From the NCBI GenBank assembly GCA_905234045.1, contig CAJOGS010000001.1, positions 1 to 44,419 of the forward strand: a stretch of DNA of 44,419 nt, written 5' to 3'. Of the stretch, positions 11,353 through 44,165 are shown piece by piece (within the stretch, counting starts at the first letter, position 1; each line of letters begins with the position of its first letter). Position numbers and translations under genes: made by a program. This stretch comes from an uncultured Selenomonadaceae bacterium (lineage in GTDB: Bacteria > Bacillota > Negativicutes > Selenomonadales > Selenomonadaceae). The notes below the pieces were generated by a model that was not told where the DNA came from, did not search any database, and worked only from the letters and a program-made list of their open reading frames with translations.

Positions 11353-11390
11353 TCAATATGTTTAACCCCTCAGAAAGGAGTATTTTTTCT

Positions 11391-14300
11391 ATGGAGAATG
11401 ATAACAGAATTAATCAGTTATCACAAGGGGTAACTTCAGTTACCGGTAACCTTCAAATTGGTTACCCCCAGTTACCCCCAGAGCAACAAAATTTTACAAC
11501 TACTGAAGTTGCAAAAATTTTCGGAGTTACTAAACAAGCCGTTATTAAATGGCGTAAAAACGGGAAACTTAGTGCAGATAGTATAGACAAACAGGGAGTT
11601 TATTGGTATTCAAGGGATAACTTGGAAAAGTTACTGGTTACCCCCAGTTACCCCCTAGTTACCGGTAACTTTCAAAGTGATTCACCCCAAGTTACCGGTA
11701 ACCTGAATATTAGTTACCCCCAAGTTACCCCCTCAGTTACCGGTAATTTTCCAACTGGTTACCCCCAAGTTACCCCCTTGGTTACCCCCAGTTACCCCCT
11801 AGTTACTGATAACTTTAAATCACCAACTGAGTCTAAAAAAATCTTCATTCCTGAAAATGTAATTGATGAAATTAAACAGATTCCGCCAGAATCTTTAGCC
11901 GCTCTTGGCGTTATCTCTGTTGCAAAAAAATCCATTAATGGCAAGCCTACTTATGTTTGTCCGAATTGCGAAAATGGTACAGGCAAAGACGGAGATGGGA
12001 TTCAACCGAATTTTGTCGGCAACACTTGGCTTTATCATTGCTTTAAATGCAACGAGGCTTTCAACAATATTCATTTGCTCGGTTTTTATTACAATCTTGA
12101 TTTTCACTCGAACTTTAAAGAAATTTGCCGTCGTGCTTGTGATGATTTCGGGATTTATCTTGATTCAAATCATCAATATAAAAATACAGGCAACAATAAG
12201 CTAATCGCCTTTAATCCTCGTCAAGACTTTGTTCCCCAAAAATCTCCTGAAGAATTAGCTCTTGAGTCTAAAGAAATTGAAATGATTAAGTCTGATATTG
12301 CCATTGCTCAGGATAATCTTAATAATTTACCTGTAGATGCCAGACGTGGAATCACTATTGAAACTTTTAAAATTTTTAAATCCGGTTTTATTTCTGATTG
12401 GACTTCACCTAAAAGCCGTATCAATAATAAATATACGACGCCAACTCCACGCCTTATTATTCCTTCCGGCAATCATTATCTTGCTCGGCTTACTGTGCCG
12501 CTTGATTCATTCGACGAAGAAACTCAAAAATACATTCAGCCTAAACAACACGCAGGTACTAAATTTCCATTCAATTTCGATTCTATTTCTACTGATTTAA
12601 TTAATATTGTTGTAGAAGGAGAGCTTGATGCTATCAGCATTTTTCAAGCTACCAATGGAAAAATTCCCGTCGTTGCTACTTCCGGCGTCTCTGGTTATGT
12701 TGAATTTGTTCGACTTGTTAAAGAAAAATTGGGAAACGCTGACATTAAACCTAAATTTTTGATTCTTTTTGACCCTGATGAATCAGGGCGTAACACTGCT
12801 ACAAAATTTCAAGAAGAATTAAATTCGGCTAAGTTTCCGGCTGTTTGCGATTTCTTGTCAAATGAAATTTCAAAAATTGATGCTAATGATATTCTTTGCA
12901 AAGACGGTGATGCTAAACTTGCCGAGTTAATTAATTCCATTCTCGCAACGGCTCAAAAGAATATTGATAGTATCGCGTTTGAGTTCGCTGAAGAATCAAA
13001 ACTTCAAGATAAAATTGCTACTTGGATTTCAATAAATGGTGATATTGAACCTGCAACTTTATCAAATTTGAAAACTACAGCTGAATATCTGAAATCTTTA
13101 ACTGTTGATAAAATCAATTCTGCTATTGTCAACGAATCTAAAGTTCTCCATGCTGTTGCTTCTTGTCAATTCTACGACTTTTACAGACAGATTGCTGACG
13201 AGTTTTTGGCGCGTGTTTACTCTGCTAAATCTAATGCTAAAAAAGTTGTTCAAAATGAAGCTTCCGATAATCCCGTTTCAGATTCTGCTAGAGCTCTTGC
13301 TTCACTTGATTTAAAATTTGTGACAGATTCTATCAAAAAGTTTGTTACTCAAGTTGCCAAATCTCATAAATCCTATATCGAACAGAAAAAAGCTGAACAA
13401 AATCTTATTGAACACGAACAAAAATTACAAGCCGCTGAGAAATATCGCACTGATGCCATTGAGCATTTAAAATTTTTAAAATCTCAACCGCCGACTACTG
13501 AACGCGATAACGAAATGCGAAAAATTATTGCCAATAATTGCAGTTGGCATGAAGACAAGTATGGAAATAGAATTGCTGTTCGCTCTACCATGGATAACTA
13601 CGATTTAATTTTTTCTTATGACCCTATTATTTCGGGTTTTTTTGCCTATGATGAATTTAAACAAGCCATTGTTTTTATGAAAAAAGCTCCTTGGCGTAAG
13701 AATTTTTCTCCCTATGAAACTTGGCAAGATTCCGATGATGCAAATTTGCGCGTTTATCTTCGTCGTAATTATACCGACATTTCTAATGAAAAACTTTATG
13801 CCGATACTTTTGAATCCTATGCTTGGGGAAATTCTTTCCACGTTGTTAAAGAGTATTTGAATAGTTTACCTAAATGGGACGGAACCCCTCGGGCTGAAAC
13901 TTTATTTATTAAATTTTTGCGTGTCGATGATACCAATTACAGCCGTGAAATTACTATGAACTGGCTTTTTGGGGCATTGGCACGTATTTTTTATCCTGGT
14001 TGTGAATATCAAACTGCTCTTGTTCTTAATGGGGCTCAAAAAATTGGTAAATCTACTATTGCCAAATTGCTCGGGGGAGCTTGGCATGCCGCTCTCAAAG
14101 ATTCGATTGAAGATTCTCACGCCATTGACGTTTTACAGACTGCTTGGATTGTTGAACTTGAAGAATTTTGGGCTGCCGGTAAAGCCGCTGTTAATGCTTT
14201 AAAAGCTTTTATTTCTGCCAATGCTGACGACCGCCGCGAAGTTTATGCTCATAAAGCTAAAAAATTTCTTCGTCACTGCGTTTTTATCGTTACTTGTAAT

Positions 14301-15068
14301 GACCAACAATTTTTGAAAGATAAAACCGGCAACCGGCGTTTCTTGGTTCTCAAATGTAATAGTAAAAAATTTGATTATGTTGAAGGCTTAAATCAAGAAT
14401 ATATTCAACAAGTTTGGGCTGAGGCTCTTTACAAGTTTAACGAAAAATTTGCTGATGGCTTTAACGATTCTAAACTTCAACTTTCTACCGAGACTCAACA
14501 AATTGCTGAAAAAATTGCTGAAACATTTACTATCGATGACAGTTTGGACGGTGAAATTGAAGCCTTCCTCAATACCAAAATTCCTCCTTATCCTGTTTGG
14601 AAACTTTTAACTAAAGAGGAACGCAGAAAATTTTTCCTTGCTAATTCTATTACTTTAGATAAAGAAGATTTGCAAGTTAGACGTAATAAACTGAAAACTG
14701 ATGAACTTGTTGAATTTGATAATGCTATTGAGAATCCCGAATTTACTCGCACTATCGAAAAAGCCACTCCTTATGGTTCAGTCGCTTGCATTTCTATTTA
14801 TGGTAGTGTCTATCGTACTGAAACTTGCGCCTCTGAAGTTTTTAACGAATGTTTTGGAAACGATAAACGTAAAAGTATTTTCCGTATTACAGAAGTTCTT
14901 AGTACTCTTAATGGTTGGTTTTTTTCAGAAAGTAGAAGTAAGGATTTTCACGATTGTTACGGAGACCAACGACGTACTTATTGCCGCAAAGAAATTCCCA
15001 TAAAAGATATAAATGATAATAAAATTTCAGCAGACACAGATAATCAAAATTTCGATTCGCCTTTTTGA
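11391..15068 (+). CDS. Primase-helicase: HTH, zinc finger, TOPRIM and VapE-like helicase
   Basis: A 1225-residue replication protein. Order: a MerR-like HTH (about 35-75, FTTTEVAKIFGVTKQAVIKW); a repetitive linker (about 84-140) encoded by iteron-like DNA; a primase zinc finger (C190, C193, C217, C220); a TOPRIM domain (VEGELDA 408-414, FDPDESG 460-466); a helical middle; and a virulence-associated-E type P-loop helicase (NGAQKIGKST 880-889, Walker B WIVELEEF 919-926, TCND 968-971, GNRRF 980-984). It should synthesise primers and unwind DNA at the element's origin. The start at 11391 has AGAAAGGAG upstream; the ATG at 11358 does not. Third positions are T-rich, unlike genes after 15.6 kb. A GTGGAC hairpin terminator follows. 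Confidence 0.9.
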   Translation: MENDNRINQLSQGVTSVTGNLQIGYPQLPPEQQNFTTTEVAKIFGVTKQAVIKWRKNGKLSADSIDKQGVYWYSRDNLEKLLVTPSYPLVTGNFQSDSPQVTGNLNISYPQVTPSVTGNFPTGYPQVTPLVTPSYPLVTDNFKSPTESKKIFIPENVIDEIKQIPPESLAALGVISVAKKSINGKPTYVCPNCENGTGKDGDGIQPNFVGNTWLYHCFKCNEAFNNIHLLGFYYNLDFHSNFKEICRRACDDFGIYLDSNHQYKNTGNNKLIAFNPRQDFVPQKSPEELALESKEIEMIKSDIAIAQDNLNNLPVDARRGITIETFKIFKSGFISDWTSPKSRINNKYTTPTPRLIIPSGNHYLARLTVPLDSFDEETQKYIQPKQHAGTKFPFNFDSISTDLINIVVEGELDAISIFQATNGKIPVVATSGVSGYVEFVRLVKEKLGNADIKPKFLILFDPDESGRNTATKFQEELNSAKFPAVCDFLSNEISKIDANDILCKDGDAKLAELINSILATAQKNIDSIAFEFAEESKLQDKIATWISINGDIEPATLSNLKTTAEYLKSLTVDKINSAIVNESKVLHAVASCQFYDFYRQIADEFLARVYSAKSNAKKVVQNEASDNPVSDSARALASLDLKFVTDSIKKFVTQVAKSHKSYIEQKKAEQNLIEHEQKLQAAEKYRTDAIEHLKFLKSQPPTTERDNEMRKIIANNCSWHEDKYGNRIAVRSTMDNYDLIFSYDPIISGFFAYDEFKQAIVFMKKAPWRKNFSPYETWQDSDDANLRVYLRRNYTDISNEKLYADTFESYAWGNSFHVVKEYLNSLPKWDGTPRAETLFIKFLRVDDTNYSREITMNWLFGALARIFYPGCEYQTALVLNGAQKIGKSTIAKLLGGAWHAALKDSIEDSHAIDVLQTAWIVELEEFWAAGKAAVNALKAFISANADDRREVYAHKAKKFLRHCVFIVTCNDQQFLKDKTGNRRFLVLKCNSKKFDYVEGLNQEYIQQVWAEALYKFNEKFADGFNDSKLQLSTETQQIAEKIAETFTIDDSLDGEIEAFLNTKIPPYPVWKLLTKEERRKFFLANSITLDKEDLQVRRNKLKTDELVEFDNAIENPEFTRTIEKATPYGSVACISIYGSVYRTETCASEVFNECFGNDKRKSIFRITEVLSTLNGWFFSESRSKDFHDCYGDQRRTYCRKEIPIKDINDNKISADTDNQNFDSPF
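11427..11813 (+). repeat. GTTACC iteron-like array inside the primase-helicase gene
   Basis: Within 387 bases there are ten direct GTTACCCCC units (11461, 11471, 11637, 11647, 11713, 11724, 11758, 11769, 11781, 11791), one inverted copy (11427), three perfect GTTACCGGTAAC palindromes (11439, 11658, 11691) and two near copies (11736, 11802). Neighbouring units are mostly 10-12 bases apart, about one helical turn. All share the half-site GTTACC. The array encodes the Tyr-Pro-Val-Thr-rich linker directly after the HTH domain. This is the arrangement of an origin placed inside its initiator gene, as in lambda O. Confidence 0.8.
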
Positions 15069-15157: not shown

Positions 15158-15255
15158 CCTTCAAAAATTCCGCGTATTTACGCCATTTTTTTACCTTTGG
15201 TGGACAAGTGGACAAGGTGGACGACTTTTCCTATAAATTGGATGAGAAAAAAAAA

Positions 15256-15312: not shown

Positions 15313-15581
15313 TTAATATAAAAGTAGAAAAACGCGTCCACTTCGTCCACTCATCCACTTTTTATAATAATGGCGTTTGTACGCGGTTTTTAAACTATAA
15401 AAATGGTGGACGATATATTTTTAGGTTGTCCACCGTCCACTTTTTAATGTTACACTATGTTTCACGCCATTTTTACGCTCTCTAAAAATGATAAATAGCA
15501 GTTCTAAAGATTTCATAGGACGCTCAAAGAAAAATTTTGAAATAATGAAACGGGAGGATTCGTCATTTTTTAGAAAAAAGC

Positions 15582-35730: not shown

Positions 35731-37716
35731 TTGGCAAATAATAACATAAAGGCAGATAAATATTCTTTGCAGGGGGAAAAATTATTCGCAACTGGTATAG
35801 GTTTGCATAATATTTTTATTATTCCAGAATTTCAACGTCCATATGTTTGGAAGAAAGAAAATTGGGAAGCCCTTTTCAATGATATAGCTTACAGTGATGA
35901 TCTTGGATACTTTATTGGCTCTATTATTTGTGTCGAAGACCAATCTACAATGAAATTTAATACACAGCTCGTAATAGATGGACAGCAACGTTTGACTACA
36001 ATTAGCTTGTTTTACGCGGCTATCTATAAAGTTTTAAAATCTTATGAAGATATTGTTAATCCCCTGACGTTTCAATACATTAAAAATCAATTAATTATTC
36101 CAGTGGATAATAACGGCACAGAGCGTACACGCATAGTTCCGCAAAATCAAGATAATATCAACGATTATTTGAACATATTTATTAAACATGATAAGCCCAT
36201 TGATATTGGACTTGAACTCATCGACCAAAATAAACTTTATCCGTTGGACTTCAACTTAATCACGAATTTCAAAATCGATGGACGGTGTAGTCTTCCAAAG
36301 GCTTATGCCTTCTTTAAAGACCAAATCATTAAGTATTCCGGTAATGGCGATGACAAGGAAAAGGTAGAAAAAATACTTGAACTTTATAAAAAATTAAATT
36401 ATGCACAACTTGTAATGATAACAACCAATTCTCTTTCGAGTGCCGGTGTTCTTTTTGAAACTTTAAATCATCGCGGACAAGCACTTACTATTACTGACCT
36501 TATTAAAAATAAACTTTATCATGCATTAGGAGATAAAAAACTTAATAATTTTCAAAAATCATTAAATGGAATGATTGACAAAATTATTTTAGAGGGTAAT
36601 AGTAAAAGAAAAAAAGAGATTTCCGCCAGCGACCAAGTAAGATTTTTCCGTCACAGTTACGATGCTTTCAGAAACGATTGGATAAAAGATGTTGAAGCTG
36701 GTAAATACGATAAAAAAGTTATTCTTCCGATTGGAGAGAGTAGTCATCTGTATGACTACTACTGCAGAATGATTGAACTTGATTGTGGAAGAGTTTTCTC
36801 ACAAATAGAAAAATGTGCTAAAATTTATCCTCGTATTCAAGGTAAAAAATCTGACGGGATAAATTCAAACAAATTAATTGAAGCCTATAAAGATTTAAAT
36901 CAACTTGATGGTAGAACAAGTTACACGTTGCTTTTATATCTTGTCGATAAGCGTTCAATTTTGAAACTTGAAGAAAAAGATTTTGAAGACATTTGTAAAT
37001 TATTGATAAGTTTCTTTGTAAGACGCAGTTTCAGCGGTGAGCCACCAGCAAATAAATTAGATGAAATTTTTAGAAACTACATTGAAGAAATTAAACAAAA
37101 TAATTATCAAGGCAAAATAATTTTTGAAAAGTTGTCAGAACGGCTGAAAGAAAAATACTATTTTTATGACAAAGATGACATCAAATTCAAAATGCAACTT
37201 AATGGTGATGTTTATAACAATGCAGCTATCAGACTTGTTTTAATAAAAATTGCGGAGCATTATCTTGGAAAACAAAAACCGGCGTTCGGAAACATTAATA
37301 ACGGTGTTCCCACTTGGTCGATTGAACATATTCTTCCTCAAACATTAGAACCTAAGAATAAGAAAAATCCTGATTGGACAAAATCTTGGGTAGAAATGCT
37401 TACAGGCGGTAATGGGAATTTAAGTGAAGCAGAAAAAATTCAAGAAAAAAATGTTCATAAACTCGGTAATCTTACTCTTACTGCTTTTAATCCTGAACTT
37501 AGCAATCGTCCATTTGAAGATAAAAGAGACAACGATGTTAAAGAAAAAGACGGTATGACGACAAAATATAGTAGCTATAAAAACAGTGTCGTAAATGTCG
37601 GAGATGAAAATTTAAATACATATATCTGCAAGCAGGACAAATGGACACAGGAAGAAATTGAAGCGCGTACTGAGCTCTTAATAGAAGTAATTGTAAAAAA
37701 CGTTTTCAAATGGTGA
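35731..37716 (+). CDS. DUF262-DUF1524 protein (GmrSD-like nuclease)
   Basis: A 661-residue protein starting at TTG, with GAGGTGAT 5 bases upstream. N-terminal DUF262 (ParB-like): IIPEFQRPYVWKKENWEALF and VIDGQQRLTTI, an NTP-using DGQQR motif. C-terminal DUF1524 HNH nuclease: WSIEHILPQT and HKLGNLTLTAFNPELSNRPF. Fused GmrS/GmrD-type enzymes cut modified (for example glucosylated) DNA of phages. Here it probably serves phage defence or competition between elements. Follows the PHP-HD gene by 74 bases and ends before a terminator. Confidence 0.85.
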   Translation: MANNNIKADKYSLQGEKLFATGIGLHNIFIIPEFQRPYVWKKENWEALFNDIAYSDDLGYFIGSIICVEDQSTMKFNTQLVIDGQQRLTTISLFYAAIYKVLKSYEDIVNPLTFQYIKNQLIIPVDNNGTERTRIVPQNQDNINDYLNIFIKHDKPIDIGLELIDQNKLYPLDFNLITNFKIDGRCSLPKAYAFFKDQIIKYSGNGDDKEKVEKILELYKKLNYAQLVMITTNSLSSAGVLFETLNHRGQALTITDLIKNKLYHALGDKKLNNFQKSLNGMIDKIILEGNSKRKKEISASDQVRFFRHSYDAFRNDWIKDVEAGKYDKKVILPIGESSHLYDYYCRMIELDCGRVFSQIEKCAKIYPRIQGKKSDGINSNKLIEAYKDLNQLDGRTSYTLLLYLVDKRSILKLEEKDFEDICKLLISFFVRRSFSGEPPANKLDEIFRNYIEEIKQNNYQGKIIFEKLSERLKEKYYFYDKDDIKFKMQLNGDVYNNAAIRLVLIKIAEHYLGKQKPAFGNINNGVPTWSIEHILPQTLEPKNKKNPDWTKSWVEMLTGGNGNLSEAEKIQEKNVHKLGNLTLTAFNPELSNRPFEDKRDNDVKEKDGMTTKYSSYKNSVVNVGDENLNTYICKQDKWTQEEIEARTELLIEVIVKNVFKW

Positions 37717-37728
37717 TAAAAAAATTTC

Positions 37729-37760
37729 AGCATTTGCCTTTGGCAGGTGCTATTTTTTTT
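37729..37760 (+). terminator. Terminator after the GmrSD-like gene
   Basis: AGCATTTGCC (37729-37738) pairs with GGCAGGTGCT (37742-37751) including two G-T pairs, followed by eight T. Confidence 0.75.
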
Positions 37761-37818: not shown

Positions 37819-37847
37819 TTGACAAACAAAAAAATTCATATTATACT
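37819..37847 (+). promoter_or_regulatory. Strong promoter of replication module 2
   Basis: Perfect TTGACA (37819-37824) and TATACT (37842-37847) with a 17-base spacer. Transcription should start near 37854, so the pentanucleotide repeat at 37861-37898 falls in the 5' UTR. Confidence 0.8.
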
Positions 37848-37860
37848 AAAAACAGTCATT

Positions 37861-37898
37861 AATTGAATTGAACTGAATTGAATTGAATTGAATTGAAC
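37861..37898 (+). repeat. Pentanucleotide tandem repeat in the 5' UTR
   Basis: Seven tandem AATTG units (one is AACTG) plus a partial, directly between the predicted transcription start and the GAGG ribosome-binding site of the gene at 37915. Such simple repeats change length by slippage. A change here would alter the UTR, not the reading frame. Confidence 0.8.
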
Positions 37899-37914
37899 AA
37901 AAAGAGGTTACACA

Positions 37915-38730
37915 ATGGGTAGAAGACAAAAACAAGAACTTGGAGACCTTCCATTATTCAAAGGTTATACAAAAACTAAACCAACAGATATGTTATTATT
38001 ATCACAATACGCACGTACAATAATGGGAAATCGTTCCCAAAAGGCTATTGCAAAAATTTGGGGATATTCTGAAAGCGCAGTATCACAATTATTAAACGGA
38101 AAAACTAATTGTATTGAGCCCGATTTTTTACAATCCATATCGGACAGTATAGAGCCTGGTTGCTCCGTAACTGGAGAAAAATTGCTGGATGCTTATGGGT
38201 ACACTAAAAATCCAAATGCTGAAAAAACTAATGAATCTACTGAAGAATACAAAGAAGACCGTTTGGAGATTCCATATACTCAAATTGCTGACAATGCGCG
38301 TAACGTTTTACAAAACTCACTGCTTGATAAAAAATATCCTATCTTGGAAACAACATTAAATTATCCATTAGTCAATAACATTGACAAAAAAATCATAATC
38401 GACTTTAGTATTCAGACGAAAATTTCGGAGGAACAGATTGTCGAATTAATAATAAAAATTATGCCAAACTCCATCGTGGAAGCGAAGAGCTTCTTTGAAA
38501 CTTTATTTGCTGCACTTTATGTCAAAGAATCTAGCTCCATGATGATGAGATATTCAGTGGTCGTTTTCGACCGCAAAGTATTTAAAGCTTTGAAGGGGGT
38601 GTATCAAGATGTACACGTAGATGACTATATTTCTGTTATTCTTATTGATAATAAGCGTCAGGCAGTTACTGACGAATTTATTATTCCGCGTAGAAATACT
38701 CAAGACAATGTAAAGTCTATATTTGTTTAA
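37915..38730 (+). CDS. XRE-like HTH regulator of replication module 2
   Basis: A 271-residue protein. The N-terminal helix-turn-helix (about 25-75) reads QYARTIMGNRSQKAIAKIWG, then YSESAVSQLLNGKTN, an XRE-type fold. A charged linker leads to an unrecognised C-terminal domain (about 150-260). First gene after the strong promoter and the AATTG repeat. Likely a phage-type repressor or activator of the ssDNA-binding/polymerase/primase genes that follow. No peptidase motif of LexA-like repressors is seen. Confidence 0.7.
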   Translation: MGRRQKQELGDLPLFKGYTKTKPTDMLLLSQYARTIMGNRSQKAIAKIWGYSESAVSQLLNGKTNCIEPDFLQSISDSIEPGCSVTGEKLLDAYGYTKNPNAEKTNESTEEYKEDRLEIPYTQIADNARNVLQNSLLDKKYPILETTLNYPLVNNIDKKIIIDFSIQTKISEEQIVELIIKIMPNSIVEAKSFFETLFAALYVKESSSMMMRYSVVVFDRKVFKALKGVYQDVHVDDYISVILIDNKRQAVTDEFIIPRRNTQDNVKSIFV

Positions 38731-38744
38731 GGAGGAAAATTTTT

Positions 38745-39278
38745 ATGAATAAATATAATGAGGTTCCAGATGTTTATGTAGTCTTAGAATCAGAACAACC
38801 AAACTATTTCAAATTGGACAAACAGATGAAACGTAGTGCATTTATTAAAGAACATCAAGACGAATGGAGAACAATAGGACATCAGTATCGTTTTGTTCGC
38901 GAATTATTGCATTTTAGTCAAAACAGTCTTGCAAAATGTATAGGACTTAGTCCTTCAGTCATTTTTGCCTTTGAAGAGGGACAACCAATACAAAGACATC
39001 GTTTTGTAGAAGGGGCGTATCGTGCAGCTTTAACATCTATTTTCTACAGTTATAATCTTTGGAATTACGAGAAACTTATTAGACATTCATTCCCTATATT
39101 TATTTTAACAGACCTTGTAGCAAATTTATTACATCACAAAAATGTTTCGTTAAAAACTTTATCGGAATTGGTTAATTTATTTGGTTTCAAAATTAAATTT
39201 AAAGATGAATATTGGACTAATATTCTTGATGAACGTGGATACCTTTTATTTTCAGTTCACTGCGAGGAGGTAATTTAA
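38745..39278 (+). CDS. HTH protein, second regulator
   Basis: A 177-residue protein, AAGGAGG before ATG. The middle (about 45-90) reads GHQYRFVRELLHFSQNSLAK, then CIGLSPSVIFAFEEGQ, an XRE-like helix-turn-helix. The C-terminal part is helical with a second HTH-like stretch (VSLKTLSELVNLFGFKI). The stop directly touches the start of the ssDNA-binding protein, indicating an operon. May act with the upstream regulator. Family not recognised. Confidence 0.6.
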   Translation: MNKYNEVPDVYVVLESEQPNYFKLDKQMKRSAFIKEHQDEWRTIGHQYRFVRELLHFSQNSLAKCIGLSPSVIFAFEEGQPIQRHRFVEGAYRAALTSIFYSYNLWNYEKLIRHSFPIFILTDLVANLLHHKNVSLKTLSELVNLFGFKIKFKDEYWTNILDERGYLLFSVHCEEVI

Positions 39279-39803
39279 ATGTTAGACAAACGGGAATTTA
39301 TTAAAGGTACAGTTATTTTTGCTAATTTGGAACGCCCAAGAATTTTTCAAAATGGCAATACTAAACATAGTGTGAGACTAGCAGTTAATAAATCTGATTC
39401 AAATACGTGCAACAAACTACAACATGCATATAGGAAAGCATTATTGGAAGGAGATACGATGTATGGAACAACAGCATTTAGCCAAAAGACCAACATAACA
39501 TCACCAATCAAAGAAGGAGTGCAATACTATGGGGATAGCTACAGCAACTACTATATTTTGGATTTGAATACCAAATTACAACCACAAGTCATAGATGTAA
39601 ACAAGATTTTATTACCAATTAATTGTATCAAGCCAGGTTCTTTTGTATGCGTAGCAATGAGTTTTTTCCCGTACAACGTTAATGAAAAATGTGGCATCAG
39701 CGGTAAACTACATAGTATGATGTTTATACGACAAGATAAGCCCATTGTTACTGAAATTTCAAATGCTTTGGAAGACTTCTCAAACTACGAATTAGATGAA
39801 TAA
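39279..39803 (+). CDS. DUF2815/gp2.5-like single-stranded DNA-binding protein
   Basis: A 174-residue protein, GAGGAGG before ATG. The opening KGTVIFANLERPRIF with KHSVRLAVNKSDSNT, the middle YYGDSYSNYYILDLN, and the end GSFVCVAMSFFPYNVNEKCG fit DUF2815, the phage ssDNA-binding family related to T7 gp2.5 (OB fold). It would coat single strands for the polymerase encoded next. The acidic tail (ALEDFSNYELDE) is typical of SSBs that contact partner proteins. Confidence 0.8.
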   Translation: MLDKREFIKGTVIFANLERPRIFQNGNTKHSVRLAVNKSDSNTCNKLQHAYRKALLEGDTMYGTTAFSQKTNITSPIKEGVQYYGDSYSNYYILDLNTKLQPQVIDVNKILLPINCIKPGSFVCVAMSFFPYNVNEKCGISGKLHSMMFIRQDKPIVTEISNALEDFSNYELDE

Positions 39804-39814
39804 CTAAAAAAGTA

Positions 39815-39850
39815 GAGGTAGTGCGAAAGTCGTTTTCATCGCGCTACCTC
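39815..39850 (+). promoter_or_regulatory. Stem-loop before the DNA polymerase gene
   Basis: A 12-base stem (39815-39826 with 39839-39850, one G-T pair) with a 12-base loop, ending 15 bases before the polymerase ATG and without a T-run. It is thus not a classic terminator; it may regulate polymerase translation or mRNA processing. Confidence 0.5.
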
Positions 39851-39865
39851 GTTGGGGATAGCGAT

Positions 39866-41833
39866 ATGAAACAAACAATTTTTGACATCACAATAGATAT
39901 TGAGACTTACTCAAATGTTGACTTGAAAAAATCTGGTGTTTATAGATATGCAGAATCAAGATATTTTGAAATTTTAACAATCGCGGTATCAGTAAACAAT
40001 GGAAAAGTTGACACCTATGATATAGCGTCCGGCGAAGAACTACCACTTGAAATGGTGCAAGCTCTACTCGATGACAAAATTATTAAGTGTGCGCATAATG
40101 CTATATTTGAAAGAATTTGCCTCAGCGAGTGGCTAAAATGTACTTATCCTGTTTTCTGGAAACATTATGGTAGAAAATATTTAAACCCGATTTGCTGGAG
40201 ATGCACGATGATTTTAGGACTTTATTACGGGTTACCAGCATCATTGAAAGATATTGGCAAAGCGTTAAATCTTCCAAACCAAAAACTTGATGAAGGGAAA
40301 AATCTTATAAAATATTTTTGTCAGCCCTGCAAACCAACATCAATTAATGGTGGCAGAACAAGAAATTTACCTTCACATAATCCTGAAAACTGGAAAATTT
40401 TCATAGAATATAATCGCCGCGACGTTGAAGTTGCTCTTGAAATAAAATCAAAACTTTCAAAATATCCGTTCCCACAAAATCTTTGGCAAGAATATGCACT
40501 CGACCAAATGATAAACGACAGCGGTATATTAATTAGCACAGATTTAGTGAACAATGCCGTTCAATTCTGCAAAAAATACACAGAAGAAATAATTGAAAAA
40601 TTAAAGACATTAACCGGCGTCGATAATCCAAATTCGGTGCAACAAATGATAAAGTGGCTGGCATCTAGAGGTATCGCTACTAAATCATTGGATAAAGAAT
40701 CTGTCAGTGCATTAATAGACATAGTTCCAGACAGCTTAAAAGAAGTACTAATTCTCTACCAAAAAATAAAAAAAACTTCGGTTACAAAATATGAACAAAT
40801 GCTCAATGTAATAGGCTTGGACGATAGGATTAGAGGCGCGTTTCAGTTTTATGGAGCAAGTACCACCGGCAGATGGTCGGGGAGACAAGTGCAATTTCAA
40901 AATTTACCAAGAGGAAACATAACTGATTTAGAAAGTGCAAGGTCACTGTTAAAAGCCGGAGATTATGATGTTTTCAAATTTCAATATGATTCAGTTCTAG
41001 ATACGTTATCGGGACTCATACGAACGGCAATAATTCCCAGTGAAGGTTTTAAATTAATTATAGCGGATTATTCGGCAATAGAAGCTCGTGTACTTGCTTT
41101 TATCGCTAACGAAAATTGGAGACTTAAAGTCTTTGCAGACGATGAAGATTTATATTGCGCCAGTGCTTCAAATATGTTTGGTGTTCCCGTAGTCAAAAAT
41201 GGCGTTAATTCTCACCTCAGACAGAAGGGCAAAATTGCAGAGTTAGCACTTGGATATGGCGGGTCTGTCAGTGCATTAAAAGCAATGGGCGCAACTCAGA
41301 TGGGAGTACCTGAGCAAGAACTTCAATATCTTGTTGACGTATGGCGTGCAACTAATCCAAATATCGTACAATTATGGGGCAACGTAGAAAATAAAATAAA
41401 ATTCACCGTTCGTTATCATATATCATCAACAATAAATGACTTGAAATTTCGCTATCAAGATAACCTGCTGTTTATTACGTTACCTTCAGGCAGAGAATTA
41501 TGCTACAGAAATCCCAAAATCGAATTTGGCAAGTTCGGACAAGAAATTATTACTTATGATGGTGACAAGTTAAATACAAGAATTGAATCTTATGGAGCGA
41601 AATTCGTTGAAAATATTGTACAGGGAATTTCAAGGGATATTCTTGCAAATGCCATGCTTAATCTTAAATCACACGGCAATATTATAGCTCATGTACACGA
41701 TGAAATTATTCTTGAGTGTGATAAAACAAAAACTGTAGATAACATCTGCAAAATAATGATGATAGCACCAACTTGGATGCCTAACATCAATCTCAAGGTA
41801 GATGAATTTGAATCAACGTATTATAAAAAATAA
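39866..41833 (+). CDS. Phage-type family A DNA polymerase with 3'-5' exonuclease domain
   Basis: About 655 residues; start ATG 39866 after GGGGAT (the frame opens at GTG 39821 within the upstream hairpin). Exonuclease motifs: DIETYSNVDL (Exo I), AHNAIFER (Exo II), YNRRDVEVAL (Exo III). Polymerase motifs: TGRWSGRQVQFQNLPRG, motif A IIADYSAIEARV, motif B RQKGKIAELALGYG, motif C AHVHDEII. All key acidic residues are present, so an active proofreading polymerase is expected. No 5'-3' exonuclease domain, as usual for this phage group. Works with the SSB before it and the primase-helicase after it. Confidence 0.9.
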   Translation: MKQTIFDITIDIETYSNVDLKKSGVYRYAESRYFEILTIAVSVNNGKVDTYDIASGEELPLEMVQALLDDKIIKCAHNAIFERICLSEWLKCTYPVFWKHYGRKYLNPICWRCTMILGLYYGLPASLKDIGKALNLPNQKLDEGKNLIKYFCQPCKPTSINGGRTRNLPSHNPENWKIFIEYNRRDVEVALEIKSKLSKYPFPQNLWQEYALDQMINDSGILISTDLVNNAVQFCKKYTEEIIEKLKTLTGVDNPNSVQQMIKWLASRGIATKSLDKESVSALIDIVPDSLKEVLILYQKIKKTSVTKYEQMLNVIGLDDRIRGAFQFYGASTTGRWSGRQVQFQNLPRGNITDLESARSLLKAGDYDVFKFQYDSVLDTLSGLIRTAIIPSEGFKLIIADYSAIEARVLAFIANENWRLKVFADDEDLYCASASNMFGVPVVKNGVNSHLRQKGKIAELALGYGGSVSALKAMGATQMGVPEQELQYLVDVWRATNPNIVQLWGNVENKIKFTVRYHISSTINDLKFRYQDNLLFITLPSGRELCYRNPKIEFGKFGQEIITYDGDKLNTRIESYGAKFVENIVQGISRDILANAMLNLKSHGNIIAHVHDEIILECDKTKTVDNICKIMMIAPTWMPNINLKVDEFESTYYKK

Positions 41834-41915: not shown

Positions 41916-44165
41916 ATGGGAAATTTTAAACTTTATAGGTCAAGTACCGCCGGTAACAACAAGAATGCTCTTTATCCAATAGAAACAAATGTGAGTTCAC
42001 CAGATATAATGAAGGAGGTTTCAAGGTTCGACCATGTAGGTGCAAAATTTAAAAATTTTATTAGGAGTAACAATAATTTTATTGAATCTAACGTAATTAT
42101 AATGGATTGCGATAACGACCATTCAGAAAATTCTAATGATTGGATGACACCGCAAAAATTACATAGGCTTTATCCGAATCTAATTTTCTTAGCTGTTAGT
42201 AGTAAAAGTAATAATATATTTAAAGGAAATTTTAAGCCAAGACCTAGACACCATTATTACTTCAGACTTAAAGATAAAATCGACGACGTTACCGAATATA
42301 GCAATATGAAAAAGTTTTTACAAGCCAAAATGCCTTTTTTCGACAAGAATGCCGTCGATAGTGCGAGATTTATATATGGAGTAGAAAACGCTTCCGTAGA
42401 AATATTTGAAGGAACAATTACCATTGATGAATTATTACAAACAAATCAAATTTTAACGTATAATCTTGATATTGAAAACGATTATGAAGGCATTCATGAA
42501 AACTTTGAACATAATAAAAATTTGATTACAGAAGGAAATCGTAACAATACAGTTTTTAATACAGCCTTTCGTGCATTCATAAGATTTGGAGATACACCAA
42601 AAGCTTATGATATTATAAAAACTGCTATTCATCAATGCTCTCCTCTCCTCGAAGAATCAGAAATAAATAGCATCATTAACAGCGCATTGAAATACTACAA
42701 TGAAATTATCCAACAAAACGATTATATCTCACCAGAAAAATATAACAAATTAAAAGAAGTTGCCACAAATTTAAAGCCAAGTGATTTCTCAGACATTGGA
42801 CAAGCCAAAATATTCGTTCGAGAAAATAAGGATATGTTGTTATTTACAAAAGCCACACATTATATGTTTTTTAACGGTTCATTTTGGGAAGACGGAGAAA
42901 CTCAAGCCAGATATTCAGTACATACATTGACAGACCGACAATTAGATGAAGTTCAATCTAGGATACAAATACTTAGAAAGCAACTGGCAACAAATCCTAA
43001 TCAAAAAGATATTATAAACAAACTTATTGACCAAGAATTGGAATATCGGAAGTTCATTTTGAAATACAGAAATACCAGCCGTATTGAGGCTACGTTAAAG
43101 GAATCCATACCTGCTTTAACTATTGATGTAAGCAAATTTGATAGCGACCCCTATTTGCTGAATATGCCGTCTGGAACTTACAATTTAAAAACTTCTGAAT
43201 TACAGCCTCACTGCTCCACTGACTACATCACAAAACAAACTACAGTTGACATTTCTGATGATGGTACAGATATATGGCTTAAATGTCTAGGAACTGTTTT
43301 TCAAAATGATACAGAATTAATAAATTATGTTCAAGAAATTTTAGGATTGACATTAATCGGCGAAGTGAAGGTAGAATCGCTTATAATTTGTCAGGGAAAT
43401 GGTAGCAATGGCAAGACTACTTTGTGGAACGTAATTTCAAAAGTTCTTGGTAACTACAGCGGTACAATAAGTGCTGATACTTTAACTGTAAATTGTAGAA
43501 GAAATATAAAGCCCGAATTGGCGAAATTACAAGGTAAAAGGTTAGTCATTGCTCCTGAATTGGAAGAAGGTGTACGTCTAAGCACTTCAACTTTAAAGCA
43601 TATTTGTTCGAGAGATGACATTACCGCAGAGGAAAAATTCAAAGCTCCATTTTCTTTCAAACCCTCACACCAGACAGTTTTGTATACTAATCCTCTGCCT
43701 AACGTAGGCTCCATTGATGAAGGTACTTGGAGAAGAATAATTTTGATTCCATTTAATGTCAGATTTTCTGGAGATAACGAAATTAAAAACTACGAAGAGT
43801 ATTTATTCAACAACGCCGGAGGCGCAATTTTAAAATGGATGGTAGAGGGAGTCAAAAAATGTATTGAACACGATTTTAAACTTACAAAACCTGCGGCAGT
43901 AATCAATGCCACTAAAAATTACAGAGAAGAAACAGATTGGCTTACTCAATTTATCGACGAATGTTGTGACATTGATATAAATGCCTCTACTCAGTCTAGC
44001 GAACTTTTTAAAAATTATAGTGGCTTTTGCGCTTCAGTCGGCGAATTTAGACGCCAACAGAAAGATTTTATCTTTGCTCTCGATTTAAAAGGTTTCCATA
44101 AAAAGAAAACAAATAAATGCAATGTTATTCAAGGCATTAAATTAAAAACCGACATAACTTTTTAA
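41916..44165 (+). CDS. Primase with SF3 (D5/P4-type) helicase domain
   Basis: A 749-residue replication protein, AAAGGAGG before ATG. The N-terminal part (about 40-175) looks like an archaeo-eukaryotic-type primase domain: VIIMDCDNDHSEN (acidic metal site) and PRPRHHYYFRL. The C-terminal D5/P4-like helicase has IICQGNGSNGKTTLWNV (Walker A 494-501), LQGKRLVIAPELEEG (Walker B), TVLYTNPLP (sensor) and DEGTWRRIILIPF (arginine finger). It makes primers and unwinds DNA for the family A polymerase upstream. The window's second, unrelated primase-helicase (compare 11391). Confidence 0.85.
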   Translation: MGNFKLYRSSTAGNNKNALYPIETNVSSPDIMKEVSRFDHVGAKFKNFIRSNNNFIESNVIIMDCDNDHSENSNDWMTPQKLHRLYPNLIFLAVSSKSNNIFKGNFKPRPRHHYYFRLKDKIDDVTEYSNMKKFLQAKMPFFDKNAVDSARFIYGVENASVEIFEGTITIDELLQTNQILTYNLDIENDYEGIHENFEHNKNLITEGNRNNTVFNTAFRAFIRFGDTPKAYDIIKTAIHQCSPLLEESEINSIINSALKYYNEIIQQNDYISPEKYNKLKEVATNLKPSDFSDIGQAKIFVRENKDMLLFTKATHYMFFNGSFWEDGETQARYSVHTLTDRQLDEVQSRIQILRKQLATNPNQKDIINKLIDQELEYRKFILKYRNTSRIEATLKESIPALTIDVSKFDSDPYLLNMPSGTYNLKTSELQPHCSTDYITKQTTVDISDDGTDIWLKCLGTVFQNDTELINYVQEILGLTLIGEVKVESLIICQGNGSNGKTTLWNVISKVLGNYSGTISADTLTVNCRRNIKPELAKLQGKRLVIAPELEEGVRLSTSTLKHICSRDDITAEEKFKAPFSFKPSHQTVLYTNPLPNVGSIDEGTWRRIILIPFNVRFSGDNEIKNYEEYLFNNAGGAILKWMVEGVKKCIEHDFKLTKPAAVINATKNYREETDWLTQFIDECCDIDINASTQSSELFKNYSGFCASVGEFRRQQKDFIFALDLKGFHKKKTNKCNVIQGIKLKTDITF

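Follow-up and report, generated by a model that had tools for sequence, protein, structure and literature searches.

An AATTG microsatellite in a predicted phage leader, probably with a modest, non-switching effect on translation or nearly none

Introduction

Short tandem repeats upstream of start codons have been described in several bacteria. In Moraxella catarrhalis, AGAT repeats in the 5' UTR of uspA2 set the expression level of this surface protein gene. According to the account of this work given in PMC4679880 (Attia and Hansen, 2006), 6 to 23 AGAT units vary among strains, and effects on expression were measured. Marine Beggiatoaceae carry intergenic TAACTGA heptamer repeats just upstream of the start codons of unrelated genes, with 169 sets per genome, mostly without a Shine-Dalgarno (SD) sequence, and a translational role has been proposed for them (PMC4679880). 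In E. coli, A/U-rich stretches with very few Gs located upstream of the SD sequence are translational enhancers (PMC2176067). For pentamer contingency loci in Campylobacter, a cut-off of 5 units is used (PMC6321876), and in Haemophilus, the 4-unit pentamer tract of hsdM has been reported to switch fast (PMC2651432).

Here, an AATTG array is described that was found in a DNA stretch of 44,419 nt from an uncultured Selenomonadaceae bacterium (in the following: the window). Like the uspA2 repeat in the account cited above, it is a short tandem repeat between a promoter, in this case a predicted one, and a start codon, outside promoter and reading frame. Unlike the uspA2 repeat, it comprises seven interrupted units and precedes the gene of a helix-turn-helix (HTH) protein. 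With the Beggiatoaceae heptamers it shares the position just upstream of a start codon, but it is one pentamer array upstream of an SD sequence. With the E. coli enhancers it shares AU-richness and the place just upstream of the SD, but it carries a single G in each unit along with a self-complementary AAUU, and only ~34% of it is predicted to be unpaired. In our view, the array is probably an AU-rich microsatellite in a tolerant phage leader that has a modest, non-switching translational effect or nearly none.

Sequence and rarity of the array

The original prediction had placed an AATTG repeat of seven pentanucleotide units at 37861-37898. The repeat is real: TRF reports period 5, 7.4 copies and 93% matches for 37861-37897, so that the predicted end was one base too long. 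The count of seven units comprises six perfect AATTG units and a variant third unit, AACTG. In order, the array reads (AATTG)2-AACTG-(AATTG)4-AA, and its longest perfect run (37874-37897) comprises 24 nt with 4 full units.

Chance does not explain this array. When up to 2 mismatches were allowed, the longest 5-periodic run extended over 32 positions, compared to a maximum of 17 in 60 dinucleotide-preserving shuffles of the window. Four perfect units (AATTGx4) have a single occurrence in the own genome, and the ~417 kb of this genome that include the window have no other pentamer tract longer than 16 nt. Therefore, the array is real and rare. Furthermore, it is isolated and stands outside any genome-wide set of pentamer simple sequence repeats (SSRs), and none of 65 congeners contains AATTGx4. 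In the window as a whole, the AATTG unit is not in excess (20 matches vs 19.8 expected), so that nothing points to a shared operator motif. A multi-copy regulon motif was ruled out, since the unit is neither enriched in the window nor present in more than a single copy in the genome.

Genetic context and predicted leader

The array and its neighbours are arranged as follows:

35731-37716, upstream gene: GmrSD-type restriction protein with both domains
37729..37751, + strand: intrinsic terminator-like hairpin with a 10 bp stem, 5 GC pairs and a ATTTTTTTTG tail, which closes the upstream GmrSD-type gene
37819..37847, + strand: predicted sigma-70-like promoter TTGACA-N17-TATACT, 11/12 consensus
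37854..37914, + strand: putative 5' leader of ~61 nt, with the transcription start put ~7 nt past the -10 box
37861..37897, + strand: AATTG microsatellite of 7.4 units, from sequence and TRF
37903..37907, + strand: Shine-Dalgarno-like AGAGG in the sequence, 7 nt ahead of the ATG
37915..38730, + strand: first gene of the run, 271-aa protein with an N-terminal XRE-type HTH (Pfam, PHROG, model)
38745..39278, + strand: 177-aa protein with a weak HTH_3 match
39279..39803, + strand: Enc34-type ssDNA-binding protein (SSB), E 4.2e-22
39821..41833, + strand: family A DNA polymerase (PolA), from profile matches
41916..44165, + strand: D5_N/DUF5906 primase-helicase of phage type, from profile and protein matches

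Hence, the proposed placement is borne out: the array follows a near-consensus promoter, precedes the gene of an HTH protein with which a replication gene run begins, and lies in a predicted 5' leader. Among the 9 promoter-like sites of the region, this promoter is the best-scoring. Since 9.1 such sites are expected by chance, it rests on its position and score and not on number. Intrinsic terminator-like sites were found five times in the region (0.6 expected). If transcription starts where we infer, the array would span roughly +8 to +44 of the leader; it ends 17 nt from the start codon of the first gene (ATG at 37915). The leader is predicted to be not especially open: its folding energy is no better than that of shuffled sequences (z 0.94), and the unpaired share amounts to ~34% in the repeat and ~22% in the SD. 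A structured RNA was ruled out by this z value together with the lack of any Rfam match in the window.

The match of the 271-aa protein to Pfam HTH_3 falls short of the cut-off (E-value 0.003), and its C-terminal part matches phrog_1337 ('DNA binding protein') with an E-value of 5.9e-10. Its AlphaFold model, based on a 4-row alignment, has a mean pLDDT of 72 that rises to ~90 across the HTH. Model residues ~22-96 align with the DNA-binding domains of SinR and P22 c2 (Z 7.4-9.2); a search by sequence against the PDB yielded no match. The primase-helicase most resembles proteins of Streptococcus and Ruminococcus phages (~40-44% identity). The tight spacing of the genes is consistent with one transcription unit, and the first gene might, judged by its position, be the 'switch for the whole module' that had been suggested. 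The GmrSD-type protein, whose best PADLOC matches are the Orf5 and HEC-06 models, adjoins the replication gene run, and its gene is a candidate defence gene.

The presence of an XRE-type HTH in the protein encoded downstream would fit an operator. The repeated TTGAATTGAA would then be a putative multi-site target, bound by this HTH protein or by a regulator of the host, allowing autoregulation just past the promoter. The array begins at ~+8, and a protein bound at this position would obstruct transcription; alternate units recur at 10 bp, that is about one helical turn. However, no dyad extends beyond AATT, the unit lacks the above-mentioned enrichment, and homologous regulators are found without the repeat (see below). 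An operator is very unlikely.

Effects of a change in unit number

The array had been interpreted as a phase-variation device. Within the repeat, TGA occurs in all three + frames, which makes frame switching on the + strand impossible and rules out a frame-switching contingency gene. Changes in unit number would leave both the -35/-10 and the SD-ATG spacings intact, as both are located outside the array. A promoter-spacing switch was ruled out, too, since the hexamers are not part of the repeat. This means, the gain or loss of a unit shifts neither a frame nor a promoter spacing as it would in a contingency locus, and any effect would have to be exerted via the length or structure of the leader or via protein binding. 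The perfect run of 4 full units (24 nt) in the interrupted array falls just under the 5-unit cut-off used for Campylobacter (PMC6321876). Given the switching of the 4-unit tract of Haemophilus hsdM (PMC2651432), instability of the array is possible. Altogether, the interrupted tract, the closed frames and the unaffected spacings lend no support to a phase-variation device, though they do not disprove it.

In a phase-variable or rheostat leader, slipped-strand changes in unit number might alter the length or structure of the leader and thereby tune the regulator and the replication genes. Precedents are the AGAT repeats of Moraxella uspA2, as far as they are reported in PMC4679880, the fast-switching pentamer of Haemophilus hsdM (PMC2651432) and, among phages, an array of differing length in front of a CI-like repressor gene (see below). 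Nevertheless, with an interrupted array, promoter and SD spacings that would not respond, no frame to be switched on the + strand and homologous leaders devoid of the repeat, such tuning is quite unlikely here.

Homologues of the regulator

Neither relatives at the DNA level in phage and plasmid collections nor close protein relatives in phages, plasmids and viral contigs were found. Strain variants of the array were searched for in the own genome, the class and the phage, plasmid and viral collections and not detected. Distant homologues of the regulator are present in 4 other genomes of the class; one congener and a second genus of the family contain homologues with 23-30% identity. The leaders of three distant homologues (L003, L066, L069) do not contain tandem repeats of period 5-9. 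L003, the closest homologue, has its own promoter (TTGACA-N17-TACAAT) and a leader of similar length, with ~60 nt between -10 box and start codon compared to 67 nt here. Since three homologous leaders lack pentamer repeats, the repeat is not a conserved feature of the gene family. The family A polymerase used as bait in viral contigs retrieved nothing. The primase-helicase as bait retrieved only distant phages, and these loci, in which the regulator gene was not seen, were for this reason left out of the leader comparison.

Pentamer arrays in viral contigs

IMG/VR was searched for contigs with four perfect units, and the reversed unit GTTAA was used as control. AATTG was found in 25, GTTAA in 71, GATTA in 21 and GTAAT in 13 contigs. 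Downstream proteins were clustered into families, and arrays between co-directional genes were counted. In 10 of 12 independent families, AATTG/CAATT arrays end at most 22 nt (a limit set after the data had been seen) from a start codon, and in 2 of 12 from a stop codon; the genes following the near-start arrays are diverse. By the same measure, GTTAA arrays have no start bias (12/25 families near a start, 10/25 near a stop). A rule that all pentamer SSRs sit at starts was ruled out by GATTA (3/13 near a start, 7/13 near a stop) and GTAAT (0/4 and 2/4). On the sense strand, 20 arrays of the G-free C-form and 5 of the G-form are located near starts, compared to 10 and 19 elsewhere (Fisher P 0.001, uncorrected). 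As the limit is post hoc, the genes are simple ORF calls and the statistics are uncorrected, start-codon proximity is a lead and not a result. The array in the window fits the near-start position but belongs to the minority G-form.

TTAAC/GTTAA arrays (L094-L164) are about three times commoner in IMG/VR than AATTG arrays, and none of them lies within a called ORF. Their unit is reminiscent of the UUAACUUUA translational enhancer of T7 gene 10.

Proposed role of the array

The view that we favour, in which an AU-rich microsatellite occupies a leader that tolerates it, is based on the repeat and its place, the closed frames and unaffected spacings, the absence from distant homologues and the proximity of similar arrays to start codons elsewhere. 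A short, interrupted AT-rich microsatellite presumably arose by local duplication or slippage between promoter and SD. In the mRNA, it would place AU-rich sequence immediately ahead of the SD, at the normal docking place of 30S subunits and protein S1. The likeliest effect on how the first gene is translated would be a modest, non-switching contribution, or nearly none. The copy number may drift in evolution, and a dedicated phase-variation device would not be involved. The leader that is predicted to be not especially open, the minority G-form, the post hoc 22-nt limit and the missing start bias of GTTAA arrays argue against this view.

A neutral microsatellite with zero effect would also be in line with a single, interrupted array that is absent from homologues, and with a leader fold no better than that of shuffled sequences. 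By contrast, similar phage arrays are unevenly spread and adjoin start codons, although this may only reflect where leaders tolerate expansion. Complete neutrality is unlikely.

A variable array upstream of a CI-like repressor gene

Three IMG/VR contigs contain CAATT arrays, all on the reverse strand:

L005:8082-8772, locus with (CAATT)19
L006:648-1323, locus with (CAATT)16
L007:1165-1827, locus with (CAATT)16

The array ends ~14 nt before the gene of a protein that combines HTH_3 with Peptidase_S24 and is, judged by these domains, a CI/LexA-like repressor. The repressor gene faces a small HTH-like gene of divergent orientation. Over the 600 nt on the repressor-distal side, L005 and L006 share 99% identity. 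An upstream ORF with its own SD-like GGAG crosses the repeat and reaches, in a frame other than that of the repressor, into the start of the repressor gene; the frame of this ORF is unchanged between the 16- and 19-unit arrays. The three loci are a case of natural unit-number variation before a phage repressor among closely related phages, known from assembled metagenome contigs alone. Literature searches on phage SSR switches of repressors yielded nothing directly relevant and no phage example.

The array in the window and those of L005-L007 belong to the same pentamer class and end close to where the gene of a phage HTH regulator starts. The latter differ in being CAATT on the mRNA (opposite strand), perfect and much longer, in the upstream ORF running through the repeat and in the kind of regulator. 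It is highly improbable that AATTG/CAATT and GTTAA/TTAAC arrays constitute a recurrent phage leader element whose length changes, here and in L005-L007, tune a regulator in a slippage-based control of replication or lysogeny. If varying leader repeats did tune phage regulators, slippage could make the decisions of phages more diverse. The value of the window is smaller: it provides a clean case of a non-coding leader microsatellite, likely with a mild effect, and a pointer to L005-L007, which are the better test case, as two unit numbers already exist there.

Other repeat arrays

The own genome (contigs C2-C21 of G000) contains many degenerate tandem arrays of 7-8-mers with a TAGTG/CACTA core. 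They are mostly intergenic and often form inverted pairs (e.g. L171:19579-19614, L174:3784-3814 and L178:2014-2043). TAGTG-N2-3-TAGTG is absent from the window and occurs 97 times in 373 kb compared to 2-3 times in mononucleotide shuffles. In the window, a repeat array composed of GTTACCCCC and GTTACCGGTAAC-like units (11440-11820) is located within the 5' part of an ORF (11358-15068) for a 1236-aa Toprim/VapE-type primase. This iteron-like array could be a replication origin within a replication gene. Downstream of the primase ORF, short tandem 9-mers (GGTGGACAA / CGTCCACTT) at 15199-15222 and 15335-15360 form an inverted pair around an A/T-rich stretch.
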